A stretch of DNA of 28,384 bases, taken from positions 1 through 28,384 of IMG/VR virus record IMGVR_UViG_3300003877_000009, one strand, 5' to 3'. The translations under genes and the position numbers were made by a program. Shown here in pieces: positions 616 to 7,368 of the stretch. How positions within the stretch are numbered: the first letter of the stretch is position 1; the number at the start of each line of letters is the position of its first letter. This stretch comes from a virus. Under the pieces are notes generated by a model, which was given only the letters and a program-made list of their open reading frames with translations, was not told the DNA's origin and made no database searches.

Positions 616-2489
616 TGGAATTTCCTAATTTACAACAGTTCGATTATTTCGCTTATGACACAGAAGATACTGGCCTCCGTTATAAGATAGATACTTTATT
701 TGGCTTTTCAATCTCCACGCCAGATGGCAAGGATTACTATTATGATGTCAGAGAAACGCCGAAAGCAGTCGATTGGCTTAATGATTCTACAGTGGTTTAC
801 AATGGTGTTATTATCTGCCATAACGCTAGCTTCGATTACCGCATGTCTGACCATTCTGGTATTTATCTGCCGCTTGAACAACTTGACGATACCGTGGTTC
901 GTGCTTGCCTCATAGATGAACACTTATTCGCCTATGATCTTGATTCATTGGGCAAGAAATACTTAGGAAAAGGAAAATATGGCGACATCTACAGAGAACT
1001 CGCAGACCTCTTCGGAGGAAGGGCAACGCGAAACGTCCAAATGCCGAACCTATGGCGCGCCCCCTCTGCTGTCGTCTCTCCTTATGCTAAGGCTGATACA
1101 AGACGAACTCTTGAGCTGTGGGAGTGGCAGGAATCCGAAATCGACCGGCAAAATCTTCGTGATATCGTCTCCTTTGAACGACAGCTCATGCCGACGCTTA
1201 TACGAGCAGAAATGCGAGGAATCCGAGTCGACCTTGGTTATGCCAATGAAGCTTTCGAAAAACTCACGCCGTTTCTGGATGAAAAGCAAGAGTTAATCAA
1301 CAAGATAGCCGGAGAAGATGTAAATGTCAACTCGTCACCGCAAATTAAGTCTATATTTAACCCCATCGAAGTCAGTGACGGCGTGTGGCATACGAGCGGC
1401 GGAACTCCAGTGGGAACAACGCCTAATGGAGGCCCAAGCATCAATGCGGAGATTCTCAGAGGAATGGACACGCCTTTGTCCAACGCAATCATTGATCTCC
1501 GTTCTCTCCTTAAGACCCGTGATACATTCCTTGCTAAACACGTCATGGAGCACGCAATCGGCGACTATGTTTACCCCACCATCAACCAAAATAAGGGAGA
1601 AGACGGCGGAACAGGAACAGGCAGACTGTCGATCACAAGTCCTGCTCTTCAGCAAATACCATCACGAAATAAGAAAATTGCAGCTATCATCAAGCCTTGT
1701 TTTCTTCCGCCAGAGGGCATGGTATGGTGCGATTGCGACGAATCCTCATTCGAAGTACGAGTGTTTGCTGACCTTATCGGAAATAATGAGATTGTTAACG
1801 CGTACAGGAATGATCCGGAATTGGACTTACACCAATATGTTGCGGACCTGACTAATCTGGTCCGGAATGCTGAGTACAGCGGCCAACCAAACGCCAAACA
1901 ACTTAATTTGTCGATGATTTTCAACTCCGGCGATGGGGCGATAGCAGATAAAATGGGCATGCCGTGGGAACCAGCAAGTTTCACTAAACGAAACGGCGAT
2001 GTAGTTCACTACAAAAAAGCGGGACGCGAAGCAAAGGAAATAATTGAACGTTACCACCGCAGGATTCCGGGAGTAAGGGAGTTAGCATCGCGAGACCAAA
2101 AGATAGCAGAACGACAGGGGTTCATAACCACTTACTTTGGCAGGAAACTAAGATTCCCTGGGGGATACAAATCATACTCGGCTAGCGGCATACGAATACA
2201 GGCCACTGCCGCAGATTTAAATAAAGAAAACTGGATGCTCATTGAAGAGCAACTGGGAAGGGACGGCGAATTCGGTCACCTACAACTGAACACGCATGAT
2301 TCCTATAGCTTGGCTCTGCCGGAAGATTGGAAGCCACACTATAAAAGAGTAAAAGAAGCCCTCGAAGAAGAGGACCGATTGAAAGTTCCTTTGATATTGG
2401 ATTGGTCAGGAACAGGCTACAACTGGCAACAAGCGTTGCAGGGTAAAGATTATGCTGGAAGAAGAAATAGAACCGGTAATAAAACTTGA
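615..2489 (+). CDS. dpoZ: Family A DNA polymerase with 3'-5' exonuclease, DpoZ-like
   Basis: Replicative DNA polymerase of 624 residues, organised as exonuclease then polymerase with no 5'-nuclease domain. The exonuclease shows all DEDDy motifs: D15-x-E17, N70-x3-D74 and Y157-x3-D161. In the polymerase part, the TGRL motif carries R337, motif A has D375 and E380 (DESSFEVR), motif B is around K428 (AKQLNLSMIF), Q529 sits in IQATAAD, and motif C is H561-D562-S563. Next to PurZ, MazZ and DatZ it is best read as DpoZ, the family A enzyme of phiVC8-type phages that prefers dZTP over dATP. Oddities against E. coli Pol I are Q424 for R754, L432 for F762, F436 for Y766, and HDS instead of HDE in motif C. 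The ATG overlaps the previous stop (TAATG), and the 3' end overlaps the helicase gene by 38 bases. The polymerase family is certain; Z specificity is inferred from context. Confidence 0.95.
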   Translation: MEFPNLQQFDYFAYDTEDTGLRYKIDTLFGFSISTPDGKDYYYDVRETPKAVDWLNDSTVVYNGVIICHNASFDYRMSDHSGIYLPLEQLDDTVVRACLIDEHLFAYDLDSLGKKYLGKGKYGDIYRELADLFGGRATRNVQMPNLWRAPSAVVSPYAKADTRRTLELWEWQESEIDRQNLRDIVSFERQLMPTLIRAEMRGIRVDLGYANEAFEKLTPFLDEKQELINKIAGEDVNVNSSPQIKSIFNPIEVSDGVWHTSGGTPVGTTPNGGPSINAEILRGMDTPLSNAIIDLRSLLKTRDTFLAKHVMEHAIGDYVYPTINQNKGEDGGTGTGRLSITSPALQQIPSRNKKIAAIIKPCFLPPEGMVWCDCDESSFEVRVFADLIGNNEIVNAYRNDPELDLHQYVADLTNLVRNAEYSGQPNAKQLNLSMIFNSGDGAIADKMGMPWEPASFTKRNGDVVHYKKAGREAKEIIERYHRRIPGVRELASRDQKIAERQGFITTYFGRKLRFPGGYKSYSASGIRIQATAADLNKENWMLIEEQLGRDGEFGHLQLNTHDSYSLALPEDWKPHYKRVKEALEEEDRLKVPLILDWSGTGYNWQQALQGKDYAGRRNRTGNKT

Positions 2490-4776
2490 TAAAGAAAAAT
2501 TTGACGAAATAGCCAAGCAACCGTCCCACGAATGGCGGGTATATTTGGCAGCAATGGAGTACATAAAATCCGGGATACCGGTGATTCCATTGGCGAAAAA
2601 TTCGAAACGGCTGCCACGTAAGGAACTAGGGATACAATATTCCCACGGCTCTACTAAACGGCCCGTTGTCGAAAAGTGGTTCTCCCCGGACGACGGCAAA
2701 TTTGCTGGCGGGAACATAGGCATACCGACCGGAAAAGAAGGTGGCGTGTTTGTTGTCGATGTGGACAGAAAGGGGGAAGCCGACGGGCTATTGGCCCTTC
2801 AGAACTTAGAAAAAAAGCACGGTAATCTGCCGTTATCGCCTGTGGCTGCTACCCCCGGTAAGGGAATACATTTATTGTTCAAATGGCAGGAAAATGCGGG
2901 CAGTTCAACTGGCAAATTACATAAAGCGATCGACACAAGGGGCGGAACAGTAGATGCGTTTAAAGGACATATAGTTGCGTTCCCGTCCACGATTAATGGC
3001 AAAATGTATAAATGGACGGCTGGCGGCGAATTGCCTCATATACCGGAATGGATAATGAATTCGATGGGGACCTTATGGAGTCCCCCAATGGAAGGAAGGG
3101 ACGGGAATCGAGGAAACGAGAACATTGAGGACGAGGACTTAGAAGCTCCGATCGAGCCTGATCAGATCGAGCGAATGCTATCCTTCATAGAACCGGAAGA
3201 CATGGACTATGACTCTTGGCTCAAGGTCGGCATGTCAATCAAGAGCCAGATGCCAGACAAAGACGGCTTGGCCCTGTGGGACGAATGGTCCAAGAAAGGA
3301 TCGCGCTACCGTAAAAACGAATGTGCGAGCAGGTGGAACGGGTTCAGTGATTTCGGCACAGTGCGTGGCGGAACTTTATTTTACTACGCCAACCAGGGCG
3401 GATGGGAACCGGACCAGAAGAAAGGGGACCGGACTGGCAACAGGTTCGATAAACTGGTCGAGGAAATGAACCAGCAATTCGCTATAGTTACTGTTGGCGG
3501 GAAGATACGTATCTTGAAAGAAAAAGCAGAGTTTACCGACCAGATGATCTCAAAGTTCGACCTGCTGGACAAAGACGGCTTTTCGTTACTGCTCGCAAAC
3601 AAAGTGATGAAAGTAAGAGACGATAAAGATAAAGTCAAAAAATTACCAACAGCAGCAATCTGGCTGGCGCATGAAGGAAGACGAACATTTGAAAACGGCA
3701 TCGGCCTGTTCCCTGACGACAAAGTGCCGTACGGGTTTTATAACACGTGGTCCGGCTTTGCGGTCGAGCCGAGGGAAGGAGAATGCGAACTATTCATAAC
3801 ACACGTAAAGGAAGTCATATGTTCCGGAAACAAAGACCACTATACGTGGCTACTGGATTGGCTGGCAGACATGGTTCAGTTTCCCGCACAGATAAAGGGT
3901 TGTTGCTTAGTGATGCGGGGAGACGAAGGAAGTGGGAAGGGAACCTTGGCTAATGCGATAGGGTCATTATTTGGTTCCCATCATCGGCATTTAATAGACG
4001 ACACCCACCTAACCAGTAATTTTAATGCTCACATGATGGATGCCATCACGGTTTTTGCCGACGAGATTACATATGGCGGCAATAAAAAGACCGAAGGAAA
4101 GCTAAAAGGCTTGGTGACGGAAGAATTTTTGTTAGGGGAGCGCAAAGGAATAGACGCAATACCGTACAGAAACATGGTTCATCTGATGATAGCAAGTAAC
4201 AACCAATGGGTGATACCAGCGGGCAAAAACAGTAGACGATGGTTTATGGTAGATGTCCCTTCAACAAAAATAGGGGACCATGCGTACTTTACCCAAATAA
4301 GAGACGAATTGAACAATGGCGGGCGCGAAGCTTTATTGTATTACTTGATGAACCGGAAAATAACAAGTGCTCTGAATTTGGCCCCTGTCACGGAGGCCAT
4401 CGTGGAACAAAGAGTTCTATCCAGCCAATCCGATAGTGTACTTATGTGGTGGGCTAGTGTAGTGACGAGGGGCAGATTATTGACTCCTGATGTCAAAGCG
4501 GAAAACACCGGCAATTGGCCCGAGCACGTGCTGAAAGCCGAACTTTACGATGAGTACGAAGAATATTGTTCTACTAGAAAATACGCATCGACTCAAGTTT
4601 ATTCTTTGTTCCACAAGCGAATGAAGGAGTTCGGCATAAAAACGAGTAGAGTAAAAACCGGCCCATCAAAAGTGGACCGATCATATGTTGCGGTTATTCC
4701 GAAGCTGGAGGCCGCAGCCGAAATAATAGAATTACAACACAAGGGTATCCTTGGGGAGAACGACGATGAAAGTTAA
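2452..4776 (+). CDS. Primase-polymerase / SF3 (D5-like) helicase fusion
   Basis: A 774-residue bifunctional replication protein. The N-terminus is an archaeo-eukaryotic-type primase-polymerase (Prim-Pol) domain at about residues 30-200, with catalytic-type acids D103-x-D105 (VVDVDRK), H140 in GIHLLFKW and D161 in IDTRGG. A PriCT-like linker follows at about 240-318 (DYDSWLKVG, then GGTLFYYA). The C-terminal half is a D5/DUF5906-type superfamily 3 helicase with Walker A GDEGSGKG (490-497, K496), Walker B FADE (D537, E538), a sensor-type MIASN and a downstream SRRWF arginine motif. It should unwind the fork and make primers for the polymerase. The start at ATG 2452 overlaps the end of the polymerase gene. 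A weak AGGG lies just upstream, consistent with coupled translation. No specific symbol can be given. Confidence 0.92.
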   Translation: MLEEEIEPVIKLDKEKFDEIAKQPSHEWRVYLAAMEYIKSGIPVIPLAKNSKRLPRKELGIQYSHGSTKRPVVEKWFSPDDGKFAGGNIGIPTGKEGGVFVVDVDRKGEADGLLALQNLEKKHGNLPLSPVAATPGKGIHLLFKWQENAGSSTGKLHKAIDTRGGTVDAFKGHIVAFPSTINGKMYKWTAGGELPHIPEWIMNSMGTLWSPPMEGRDGNRGNENIEDEDLEAPIEPDQIERMLSFIEPEDMDYDSWLKVGMSIKSQMPDKDGLALWDEWSKKGSRYRKNECASRWNGFSDFGTVRGGTLFYYANQGGWEPDQKKGDRTGNRFDKLVEEMNQQFAIVTVGGKIRILKEKAEFTDQMISKFDLLDKDGFSLLLANKVMKVRDDKDKVKKLPTAAIWLAHEGRRTFENGIGLFPDDKVPYGFYNTWSGFAVEPREGECELFITHVKEVICSGNKDHYTWLLDWLADMVQFPAQIKGCCLVMRGDEGSGKGTLANAIGSLFGSHHRHLIDDTHLTSNFNAHMMDAITVFADEITYGGNKKTEGKLKGLVTEEFLLGERKGIDAIPYRNMVHLMIASNNQWVIPAGKNSRRWFMVDVPSTKIGDHAYFTQIRDELNNGGREALLYYLMNRKITSALNLAPVTEAIVEQRVLSSQSDSVLMWWASVVTRGRLLTPDVKAENTGNWPEHVLKAELYDEYEEYCSTRKYASTQVYSLFHKRMKEFGIKTSRVKTGPSKVDRSYVAVIPKLEAAAEIIELQHKGILGENDDES

Positions 4777-4987
4777 TGTATTAAAGGAAAAGCTAGAAAC
4801 TGCGATAGAGTTTGATATGGCGAAAGCCGATGTTGTAGTGCGGTTCGGAAAGCTCCGGGGCGGGAAAGGCTTGCCGATAGAAATAGTCGGCTATGACTCT
4901 ATTGCCGGCGAACTTATACTAGAAGTACCGGAATTAAAGAAAGCCAACTACCCGTTCCTCCTAGAGGACGACGTGTGCGGCGACTGA
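4766..4987 (+). CDS. Small hypothetical protein (73 aa)
   Basis: I do not recognise this protein. The chosen start is ATG 4766, with GGGGAGAA at 4753-4760 five bases upstream. An in-frame TTG at 4751 is less likely because it would swallow that ribosome binding site. The gene begins inside the last codons of the helicase gene (11-base overlap), so it belongs to the replication operon. The product is a compact mixed alpha/beta protein: a Lys/Glu-rich N-terminal helix, then VVVRFGKLRGG, then alternating strands ending in an acidic tail (LLEDDVCGD). No membrane or signal segment is seen. It sits directly before the periodic GTTGGAG array, so a DNA-binding or regulatory role is possible but is only a guess from position. 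Confidence 0.75.
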   Translation: MKVNVLKEKLETAIEFDMAKADVVVRFGKLRGGKGLPIEIVGYDSIAGELILEVPELKKANYPFLLEDDVCGD

Positions 4988-5095
4988 GGTCGTTGGAGCG
5001 TTGTTGGAGGCCCGTTGGAGGCCCGTTGGAGAACTGATACACCACCGTCGAGCATACGTGGCTCGGCATACTGACACCATAGAGGACAGACACCC
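4988..5095. other. Intergenic region upstream of purZ
   Basis: This 108-base stretch is the only sizeable non-coding gap in the rightward block. It holds the GTTGGAG repeat array (4992-5031), a short inverted repeat CGAGC/GCTCG (5049-5053 with 5061-5065, 7-base loop) that overlaps two GCATAC direct repeats, and the purZ ribosome binding site AGAGGA (5081-5086). I see no convincing sigma70 promoter and no T-tract terminator in it. Confidence 0.7.
4992..5031. repeat. Four GTTGGAG direct repeats at exact 11-bp period
   Basis: GTTGGAG occurs at 4992-4998, 5003-5009, 5014-5020 and 5025-5031, each start exactly 11 bases after the last. The two central spacers share GCCC. The period is about one helical turn, so a protein would meet every copy on the same DNA face. 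Such arrays serve as iterons in replication origins or as operators. A fifth match, GTTGGAGGCC, lies inside purZ at 5365-5374, where it encodes Leu-Glu-Ala and may be chance. Confidence 0.85.
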
Positions 5096-6127
5096 ATGAA
5101 GAAAAAAGCAGATTTGATCATAGACCTACAGTACGGGTCCACAGGAAAAGGCGCAATAGCCGGATATTTAGCCGCGACTCGCGACTACGATCTAGTGATT
5201 AATGCCAACATGCCGAACGCAGGACACACATACATCGATAAAGGCGGCGCAGTGATGATGCATAAGGTCCTGCCTAACGGCGTAGTCGGCCCGCACATTA
5301 AAGACGTTATCTTAGGCCCGGGGTCGATCTTTGACCCGGCCCAACTACAAAAAGAACTTCACTTGTTGGAGGCCTTGGGCTACGATCGCTGGAACTTTCA
5401 TATCCACGAAAATGCGTGTGTTGTGACCGACTATGACAAAGAACAAGAACAGCGGCATATGGCGGACATTGGCTCTACTTGTCAAGGCACATCGGTCGTA
5501 ATGGTCAACAAAATAAAGCGAAACAAGATGCAGGACCCCACGGCCAAGACTCGATTAAAGGGGACCCCATTTGAATGCCACCTAATAACGAACGCTGAAT
5601 ATCTAAACAAAATAGATCAAGCTGAACGAATCTTACTTGAAGGGGCGCAGGGCTACAGCTTAGGCATCAATGCCGGGTTTTTCCCGTTCTGCACCTCCAG
5701 AGATTGTACGCCAGCCAGATTCTGTGCTGATATGAACATTCCGATGCCGATGATCAATAAAGTGATCGGCACAGCCCGAATGCATCCAATCCGGGTCGGC
5801 GGCAACAGCGGCCCTTGCTACGAAGATCAAATGGAGACGACATGGGAAGTATTAGGGGTCGAAAAGGAATACACCACTGTAACAGGCCGGGAACGGCGCG
5901 TGTTTACTTGGTCGCAGCAACAAATTCTAGACGCGATGTTTGTCTGTCAGCCAGATGAAGTGTTCCTTAACTTTTGCAACTATGACCCGAAAATGGTTCC
6001 CATAATCCGCTCTCTTATAGATTCTGCGGCGCGGAGTTCCGGTTGCGAAGGCCATGTACGGTATGAAGGCTGGGGCGCGAACCACGGCGACATTAAAGAA
6101 CAAATGGAGTTATATAAAGATGGATAA
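5096..6127 (+). CDS. purZ: PurZ, 2-aminodeoxyadenylosuccinate synthase
   Basis: A 343-residue member of the adenylosuccinate synthetase fold, shorter than cellular PurA (about 430). PurZ joins aspartate to dGMP, using ATP or dATP as phosphate donor. Host PurB and kinases then carry the product on to dZMP and dZTP. The diagnostic change is in the N-terminal loop: QYGSTGKG (residues 12-19) replaces the PurA GDEGKG, so the PurA catalytic Asp is Ser15, as in known PurZ enzymes. Other PurA landmarks persist: NAGHT (41-45, preceded by Pro40 where PurA usually has His), GTS at 131-133, LEGAQG (181-186), IRVGGNSGP (232-240) and TGRERR (263-268). The start is ATG 5096 with AGAGGA nine bases upstream. 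The gene leads a tight operon with mazZ and datZ, its end overlapping mazZ by 8 bases. Confidence 0.95.
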   Translation: MKKKADLIIDLQYGSTGKGAIAGYLAATRDYDLVINANMPNAGHTYIDKGGAVMMHKVLPNGVVGPHIKDVILGPGSIFDPAQLQKELHLLEALGYDRWNFHIHENACVVTDYDKEQEQRHMADIGSTCQGTSVVMVNKIKRNKMQDPTAKTRLKGTPFECHLITNAEYLNKIDQAERILLEGAQGYSLGINAGFFPFCTSRDCTPARFCADMNIPMPMINKVIGTARMHPIRVGGNSGPCYEDQMETTWEVLGVEKEYTTVTGRERRVFTWSQQQILDAMFVCQPDEVFLNFCNYDPKMVPIIRSLIDSAARSSGCEGHVRYEGWGANHGDIKEQMELYKDG

Positions 6128-6377
6128 ATATGACACAACACATCGTATAATTTCCAATATGGCAGGGGTCAAAATGCGGATGAACGCCCATAAAGGCGAC
6201 ATAGAAGACGTTGATCCTTTAGCCCTGATTAAAAAGATGCGCGGTGAAGTAGACGAGCTTGAAGAAGCCATACAGAAGGGAGATATCATGCACATTATTG
6301 AAGAATCTGCTGATGTTTTTAATTTTTTGGTAGCACTGACGCATCAACAAGTAACTAAATATAGAGTGAGGAAATGA
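6120..6377 (+). CDS. mazZ: MazZ, MazG-like (d)GTP pyrophosphohydrolase
   Basis: An 85-residue all-alpha MazG-type protein. In Z phages MazZ hydrolyses dGTP (and GTP) to the monophosphate plus pyrophosphate, giving PurZ its dGMP substrate. The metal-binding signature is present: E43-x2-E46 in GEVDELEEA and E62-x2-D65 in EESADVF. The chosen start is ATG 6120, with GGAG at 6106-6109 upstream; the frame is open further 5' but that part lies inside purZ. It overlaps the purZ end by 8 bases and the datZ start by 4 (ATGA), so the three are likely translated in step. The sequence alone would support only 'MazG-like'; the MazZ name rests on the purZ-datZ context. Confidence 0.88.
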   Translation: MDKYDTTHRIISNMAGVKMRMNAHKGDIEDVDPLALIKKMRGEVDELEEAIQKGDIMHIIEESADVFNFLVALTHQQVTKYRVRK

Positions 6378-6931
6378 TGGAAATACAAGATATACTATTA
6401 TTACAAGACGTGGGCCGGTGGGGAATTGTTCGTGTTTCAAAGCGACAGTCTGTGGCGGAGCATACATTTAATGTGACGATGATCGCACGGGCCATAGCCA
6501 AAGAAGCCGGGGTTCCGGACAACGAGCTGATTAAGTATGCTCTTGACCACGACATCGATGAAGTTATGACAGGAGACATACCCAGCCCAGCTAAAGTGCG
6601 GATGGGCATCAAGGGCAAGGGCTACGAAGGCAACGGGCGTAGCTTATGTACGGCTCAACAAGCCCTAATTGTGGAAGTAGCGGACATCATGGAGGCTTGC
6701 ATCTTTTTGAGCGAAAACGGCTTGGGCCGTCATGCTCAAGTAGTATCCCAATCTCTAGCTATAAAGCTAGTCGAAAAAATGCAGTTTGCGGACAGTCAAT
6801 TCGACAACATTGGAACGGCCTGTCAGAGGGTGTTTGATGCGGCGACACAGGGGAAATACGAAGCAGAGAAAACTGAAGTTTCTAAAGTCGTCGATGACGG
6901 CGATGACGACTTTTTTATTCCTGCGTTCTGA
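6374..6931 (+). CDS. datZ: DatZ, HD-domain dATP triphosphohydrolase
   Basis: A 185-residue HD-superfamily phosphohydrolase of the YfbR-like type. DatZ removes the triphosphate from dATP, clearing the pool so adenine is kept out of the phage genome. The metal and catalytic residues are in place: H30 in SVAEHTFNV, H59-D60 in LDHDIDEV, E63 beside it, and D104 in EVADIMEA. The TGDIPSPAK stretch (66-74) matches the equivalent loop of YfbR-like proteins. After about residue 155 the tail is acidic (DDGDDDFF). The start is ATG 6374, overlapping the mazZ stop. A second in-frame ATG at 6377 would shorten it by one residue. AGTGAGG at 6365-6371 is the likely ribosome binding site. Confidence 0.92.
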   Translation: MMEIQDILLLQDVGRWGIVRVSKRQSVAEHTFNVTMIARAIAKEAGVPDNELIKYALDHDIDEVMTGDIPSPAKVRMGIKGKGYEGNGRSLCTAQQALIVEVADIMEACIFLSENGLGRHAQVVSQSLAIKLVEKMQFADSQFDNIGTACQRVFDAATQGKYEAEKTEVSKVVDDGDDDFFIPAF

Positions 6932-7368
6932 TGGGTAAGCGCAACCCGCAATGCGAAGGCGACTTGTGGCTCCAATTCGCAGAGCACATGAAGCCATACG
7001 GGCATTTTAGCCGAGTCGAATCGCCTGAAACAAGCGATGGCATACCGGATATTGATTTCTGCATAGCCGGGACAGAAAGCCATATGGAGCTTAAATTCAA
7101 CAATGGAGACCGGGCTAAAAAGGATTTTATCCGCCCGTCCCAAGTTCGTTGGTTTAGGAAGCGGATAAAAGAAGGGGGCCATCCGTGGCTTTTTGCTCTC
7201 TTCCTTGTGGGGGGAACTCGGTATTATATGTTATTTGATGATTTGAGTGAAATATATGACGCAAGGGACTATAGTACGTGGGCGCGTCACTCTTTTAGGA
7301 CGTGGCACGGCAAAATGAATTGGGACCAATTAGCTAGTATTATTAGTGCTTCGTCCATTACAAATTAG
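6931..7368 (+). CDS. Putative PD-(D/E)XK nuclease (VRR-NUC / Hjc-like)
   Basis: A 145-residue protein with the pattern of small phage PD-(D/E)XK nucleases: an N-terminal E9, then GIPD with D40 (or D42), a beta strand, and the HMELKF element with E53 and K55, followed by Q71 in PSQVRWFRK, as in VRR-NUC and archaeal Hjc-type enzymes. Expected activity is metal-dependent cleavage of DNA, perhaps branched intermediates or host DNA. It starts at ATG 6931, sharing one base with the datZ stop (TGATG). No Shine-Dalgarno is visible, so reinitiation after datZ is likely. It is the last gene of the rightward block, and its 3' end overlaps the convergent tailspike gene by 11 bases. The nuclease fold is probable; the substrate is unknown. 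Confidence 0.65.
   Translation: MGKRNPQCEGDLWLQFAEHMKPYGHFSRVESPETSDGIPDIDFCIAGTESHMELKFNNGDRAKKDFIRPSQVRWFRKRIKEGGHPWLFALFLVGGTRYYMLFDDLSEIYDARDYSTWARHSFRTWHGKMNWDQLASIISASSITN

Follow-up and report, generated by a model that had tools for sequence, protein, structure and literature searches.

Gene content of the locus

The window (the whole stretch of 28,384 nucleotides that was analysed) is a 28.4-kb viral contig fragment, and it derives from a phiVC8-like Z phage, whose DNA is probably built with the modified base Z. Tail and head genes make up its leftward block, and the rightward block encodes a family-A DNA polymerase, a primase-helicase of 774 amino acids, a 73-amino-acid ORF, PurZ, a MazG-like protein, a DatZ-like HD protein and a member of a PHROG "DNA helicase" family (Table 1). 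As the earlier note had stated, the space before purZ is the only sizeable gap of the rightward block: it is the sole intergenic gap of at least 30 bp inside the block, a further 51 bp preceding the block's first gene at the contig edge. This gap is probably transcribed along with the rightward block. GC skew, a check suggested in the earlier note, tracks gene orientation and is uninformative on an origin at 5 kb.

Table 1. Features at and around the gap upstream of purZ (positions refer to the window)
Feature	Position	Strand	Remark
Primase-helicase, 774 aa: Prim-Pol (PF09250), PriCT-2 (PF08707) and SF3-type DUF5906 (PF19263)	2452..4776	+	proposed initiator binding the array
C-terminal part of the primase-helicase, residues about 658-768, winged-helix topology in the model	4423..4755	+	proposed array-binding domain
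73-aa ORF, ATG overlapping the primase stop region	4766..4987	+	lineage-specific by sequence comparison
Most A+T-rich 30 bp of 4701-5400 (23/30 A/T), beside the primase stop	4770..4799	.	possible strand-opening site
Intergenic gap, 108 bp, 59% GC: array, short hairpin and purZ leader	4988..5095	+	
Four head-to-tail GTTGGAG cores (7 bp) with 4-bp spacers, period 11 bp	4992..5031	+	proposed iterons
Inverted repeat GTCGAGC-ATACGTG-GCTCGGC, 7-bp stem, 7-nt loop	5047..5067	+	
purZ, 2-aminoadenylosuccinate synthetase, first gene of the Z block	5096..6127	+	
Remaining Z block: MazG-like (MazZ), DatZ-like HD phosphohydrolase, PHROG "DNA helicase"-family protein	6054..7368	+	

The phased repeat array

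Four copies of GTTGGAG, which the earlier note had described as standing in perfect 11-bp phase before purZ, were confirmed at 4992-4998, 5003-5009, 5014-5020 and 5025-5031, with a start-to-start step of exactly 11 bp. The units are, in order, GTTGGAGCGTT, GTTGGAGGCCC, GTTGGAGGCCC and GTTGGAGAACT; the 7-bp core is identical in all four, the 4-bp spacers differ (CGTT, GCCC, GCCC and AACT), and the two units in the middle are identical throughout. The array starts 216 bp past the stop of the primase-helicase gene, with the 73-amino-acid ORF in between, and its end is separated from the purZ start codon by 64 bp. Since it begins 4 bp past the stop of the 73-amino-acid ORF and its 11-bp period breaks the reading frame, coding does not explain it, and the remark in the earlier note that the coding annotation offers no explanation is borne out. 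The lone GTTGGAGGCC found within purZ (5365-5374) matches ten bases of an array unit.

Chance falls far short of explaining the array. In Markov shuffles of the window (orders 1 and 3, 40 each), no 7-mer occurred with even three phased copies at any period between 8 and 22 bp; analytically, about 1e-7 four-copy arrays are expected per window. Furthermore, the array is the sole non-coding 7-mer cluster in 28 kb. It could nevertheless be a functionless minisatellite, namely, an 11-bp unit that slippage multiplied within a recently gained noncoding spacer, which we regard as less likely than a set of iterons but as a serious alternative. Two adjacent identical units are what a recent duplication would give, but all four positions at which unit 1 departs from the common unit belong to the spacer, the core being unaffected, a contrast with a p of about 0.03 once free choice of the block is allowed for, the argument being weakened to this value by the core having been picked after the units were seen. 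The solitary occurrence of such a cluster in the window, at the position where related initiators have their iterons, also speaks against neutral duplication.

Promoter and structure content of the gap

A tandem operator would fit the head-to-tail repeats with their 11-bp step and 7+4-bp geometry, pho boxes likewise having a 7-bp core plus a 4-bp spacer. A winged-helix regulator, either a host protein of the OmpR/PhoB type or a phage-encoded one, might occupy these repeats and control transcription of purZ-mazZ-datZ, and the location of the array a short distance ahead of purZ, within the block's sole sizeable gap, would suit such a role. However, the neighbouring promoter expected of an operator was not found, in that no sigma70-like promoter could be recognized in the gap (best match, 7/12) by a check confined to this promoter type; moreover, no known operator with a GTTGGAG core was found, and the sequence is unlike the pho box. 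We consider control of the Z genes through the array less likely than a role as iterons, but a serious alternative.

No A+T-rich tract occurs in the gap, nor does it contain inverted copies of the core. A+T-rich opening sites commonly accompany iterons, although they are not known to be essential, and the one nearest to the array is at 4770-4799. The hairpin with a 7-bp stem that lies in this probably transcribed region could point to an RNA-level element in the purZ leader, such as an attenuator, a ribosome-binding control or a processing site. Nonetheless, the leader folds no better than shuffled sequences (RNA z = +1.36; DNA z = +1.61 for the 108-nt gap), the hairpin is no more stable than shuffled sequence (z = -0.77 for the hairpin alone), no T run follows it on the 3' side, and the exact helical phasing favors recognition of DNA over recognition of RNA. 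The fold and promoter/terminator checks thus lent no support to an RNA structure or terminator in the gap, and an RNA-level role appears very unlikely.

Related loci

Relatives of the phage, at about 31 to 56% protein identity, comprise Vibrio phage phiVC8 and its kin, K300, Alteromonas phage ZP6, Stenotrophomonas phage BUCT555 and viral contigs. In none of 83 related loci (six named phages and, from viral contigs, 57 loci around purZ and 20 around the primase gene) did we find the four-copy 11-bp array, and mostly there was no gap either; in the closest phages found (about 50 to 56% protein identity), the array is missing together with the segment that holds it, i.e., the 73-amino-acid ORF plus the gap. 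In 35 of 59 purZ loci (some of them redundant), purZ is immediately preceded by the SF3 primase gene, usually with an overlap or a zero gap. The earlier note had named the absence of phased repeats at this place in close relatives as grounds for discarding its reading. Every relative found lacks them; since these relatives are distant and devoid of the whole segment, the comparison indicates lineage-specificity and not lack of function. On the sequences compared, the array and its segment (the small ORF plus 108 bp) are lineage-specific, and it follows from their absence in the closest relatives that the array, if an origin, would not be the ancestral one. That the array is missing from all relatives is also what a neutral minisatellite would predict.

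Where relatives do have a gap before purZ, some carry a promoter in it, as would be expected if this junction served the regulation of the Z genes. A clear sigma70-type promoter, TTGACA-N17-TACAAT, was detected by script in the gap of Burkholderia phage Bm1, and TTGACA-N17-TATACT and TTGACA-N17-TATAAT were read by eye before purZ in K300 and in the related locus L148, respectively. Most relatives, however, are gapless at this junction, so that their Z genes are read from upstream, which argues against an operator. Strong inverted repeats occupy the short gap before purZ in phiVC8 and K300, the corresponding place in the window being the purZ leader, and this is the comparative observation that favors an RNA element. 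In phiVC8 (L002:5957-5976), a perfect 20-bp palindrome, GGGTGTCGACGTCGACACCC, with a DNA fold z of -4.05, is located between primase and purZ, at the place that matches the array of the window. Small ORFs found directly before purZ differ by lineage (the 73-amino-acid ORF in the window, and others in L141, L162 and L174), and the junction before purZ looks like an insertion hotspot.

GTTGGAG arrays in other contexts

Arrays of GTTGGAG with an 11-bp step were recovered from 6 viral and 39 bacterial loci of mixed contexts, and an SF3 helicase was present in only 1 of these 45 loci; for this reason GTTGGAG at 11 bp was rejected as a diagnostic motif. No SF3 gene was found near a GTTGGAG-N4 x3 array in any of the 39 bacterial loci, which implies that such arrays also have other causes, and many of these loci resemble plain tandem repeats, in line with a minisatellite. 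A scan with variable spacing returned, among the matches listed, mostly coding repeats with spacings divisible by 3, and it was left out of the statistics. In two loci (L003:571-610 and L005:12054-12082), the ORFs that contain 11-bp GTTGGAG arrays resemble, on inspection, phage replisome-organiser proteins, the array being in the linker, as in lambda O.

Repeat clusters 3' of SF3 helicase genes

As a comparison set, we considered 14 plasmids, satellites and temperate phages, hand-picked from search hits, that encode SF3-type helicases (DUF5906 or VapE) related to the window protein or to VapE. Clusters of repeated 7-mers occur within 420 bp 3' of the helicase gene in 10 of these 14 elements and within 420 bp 5' of it in none, and cluster coverage amounts to 13.8% in the 3' region versus 0.47% elsewhere. 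Examples of the repeats are GGTGTCCA in a Roseomonas plasmid, GGTTACAA in Proteus pW47-1, GGTGGCA in pKNA06 and GTTCCACCC in pLAO97; four of the elements, namely, the Roseomonas, pMP1, Citrobacter and Proteus plasmids, encode DUF5906 homologues of the window protein. Among lytic phages with homologous primases, no repeat cluster was found within 420 bp 3' of the primase gene (0 of 11), the labels "lytic" and "temperate" being taken from record names and gene content.

The reversed motif GAGGTTG, which was intended as a control, retrieved GTTG arrays beside VapE and is thus not a neutral one. In particular, 13 of 22 viral contigs with GAGGTTG-N4 x3 arrays have the array 8 to 101 bp 3' of the stop of a VapE helicase gene, while VapE was found in none of 30 control contigs; these loci belong to a few families, hence to fewer independent cases, and, having been picked for their arrays, they inform on position only. 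Like the array of the window, these arrays are built on a GTTG core repeated every 11 bp, and they are likely the replication origins of the elements that carry them. At such loci, among them L211:4898-4923, L213:1254-1279, L215:3392-3417 and L221:2341-2366, 11-bp GTTGG-core arrays 3' of VapE-type genes are accompanied by inverted and 9-bp-spaced copies. An 85.9-kb contig (L219:13078-13106) carries a GTTGTGCAGAG array followed by GTTGCGCATAA and related copies, and no VapE was found in that record at the threshold used. A limited literature search returned no paper joining VapE with iterons.

The primase-helicase

The gene beside the array encodes an SF3-type helicase, the proposed initiator, as judged by its three Pfam domains and by the match of residues 467 to 665 to solved chains named Primase (6k9c and 6k9e; 2e-12). 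Short direct repeats are found downstream of this gene, although at a distance and behind the small ORF. In the model of the C-terminal 155 residues (mean pLDDT, 71; pTM, 0.60), pLDDT is mostly 76 to 89 in the winged-helix part, and the last 110 residues follow the order helix-strand-helix-helix-strand-strand, which is typical of winged helices. The structural neighbors of the model are mostly winged-helix proteins, with weak scores (Z of 5 to 6; Foldseek E of 0.06 or worse), and the best matches, again with modest scores, include DNA-bound (origin-bound) Cdc6/Orc1 initiators and the replication terminator protein. The predicted fold fits a DNA-binding domain at the C terminus of the primase-helicase. 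For the 73-amino-acid protein, in turn, Pfam, PHROGs and phage records yielded no homologue, and no DNA-binding domain was recognizable; it was dropped as the array binder, the lack of a detectable homologue leaving it no special candidate for that role.

A candidate replication origin

Our preferred reading, to which we give slightly less than an even chance, is that the array consists of iterons to which the phage's own primase-helicase binds through its C-terminal winged-helix domain, and that these belong to a replication origin located 3' of the initiator gene. We infer that four head-to-tail sites on one face of the helix would be recognized by this domain of the Prim-Pol/PriCT-2/SF3 protein and that binding would lead to helicase assembly at the array; unwinding, which might begin at the A+T-rich stretch beside the primase stop, and priming would follow, after which the family-A polymerase of the phage would take over. 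Between the two options raised in the earlier note, the iteron-type origin is the better supported, given the position of the array 3' of an SF3 gene, where related initiators have iterons, whereas the Z-gene operator finds no support in the sigma70 promoter check. Against iterons count the empty tallies among the related loci and the lytic phages, the small ORF that splits the array from the primase stop, unlike most comparison cases, the bacterial arrays without SF3 genes, and a GC-rich gap free of inverted copies.

If the iteron reading holds, the locus would by analogy work like known SF3-initiator origins. SaPI Rep and SCCmec Cch2 use their C-terminal domains to contact iterons that immediately follow the genes encoding them, and Cch2 has only three such iterons (PMC7581432). 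As in these systems, the window has short direct repeats 3' of an SF3-type helicase gene, and its helicase may likewise have a C-terminal DNA-binding domain; it differs in the intervening small ORF and the distance of the array, in its core (GTTGGAG versus AAGTG) and in the phage having its own family-A polymerase. pRN1 (Prim-Pol, SF3 and winged helix) requires a region downstream of its gene, and a similar suggestion has been made for Bordetella phage BIP-1, whose domain order, including PriCT-2, is identical to that of the window protein (PMC4234260). The cis element, putative in the window, would lie 3' of the replication gene in all three; however, the pRN1 element is a 100-nt stem-loop without iterons, and the window, with its proposed iterons and weak hairpin, contains no large stem-loop of the pRN1/BIP-1 type (about 100 nt) 3' of the gene.

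The VapE arrays described above (L211, L213, L215 and L221) resemble that of the window in their GTTGG core, their 11-bp period and their position 3' of an SF3-type helicase gene, but they stand beside VapE and not DUF5906, much closer to the stop, on the opposite strand and with extra inverted and 9-bp-spaced copies. Repeats similar to these, mainly with 9-bp steps, occur in Synechococcus phage S-LBS1. The P4 alpha protein has a Toprim-type primase, and its iterons differ from the array of the window. It resembles the window protein as a single polypeptide in which primase, helicase and a winged helix binding the origin repeats are combined (PMC4234260), the winged helix and its binding being proposed in our case.

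In a limited literature search, no report of a mapped replication origin was found for phiVC8-type Z phages, and a four-copy array beside a Prim-Pol/SF3 gene offers a direct and cheap test of where the copying of Z-DNA starts. More generally, short repeats just 3' of SF3-type helicase genes, as in most of the comparison elements, provide a simple rule for locating origins. It is also possible to speculate, as an improbable extension, that a lytic Z-DNA phage acquired a plasmid- or satellite-style iteron origin like that of the unrelated VapE phages, the shared core, step and position reflecting a recurrent recognition code of SF3 initiators that would be read here with 2-aminoadenine in place of adenine.
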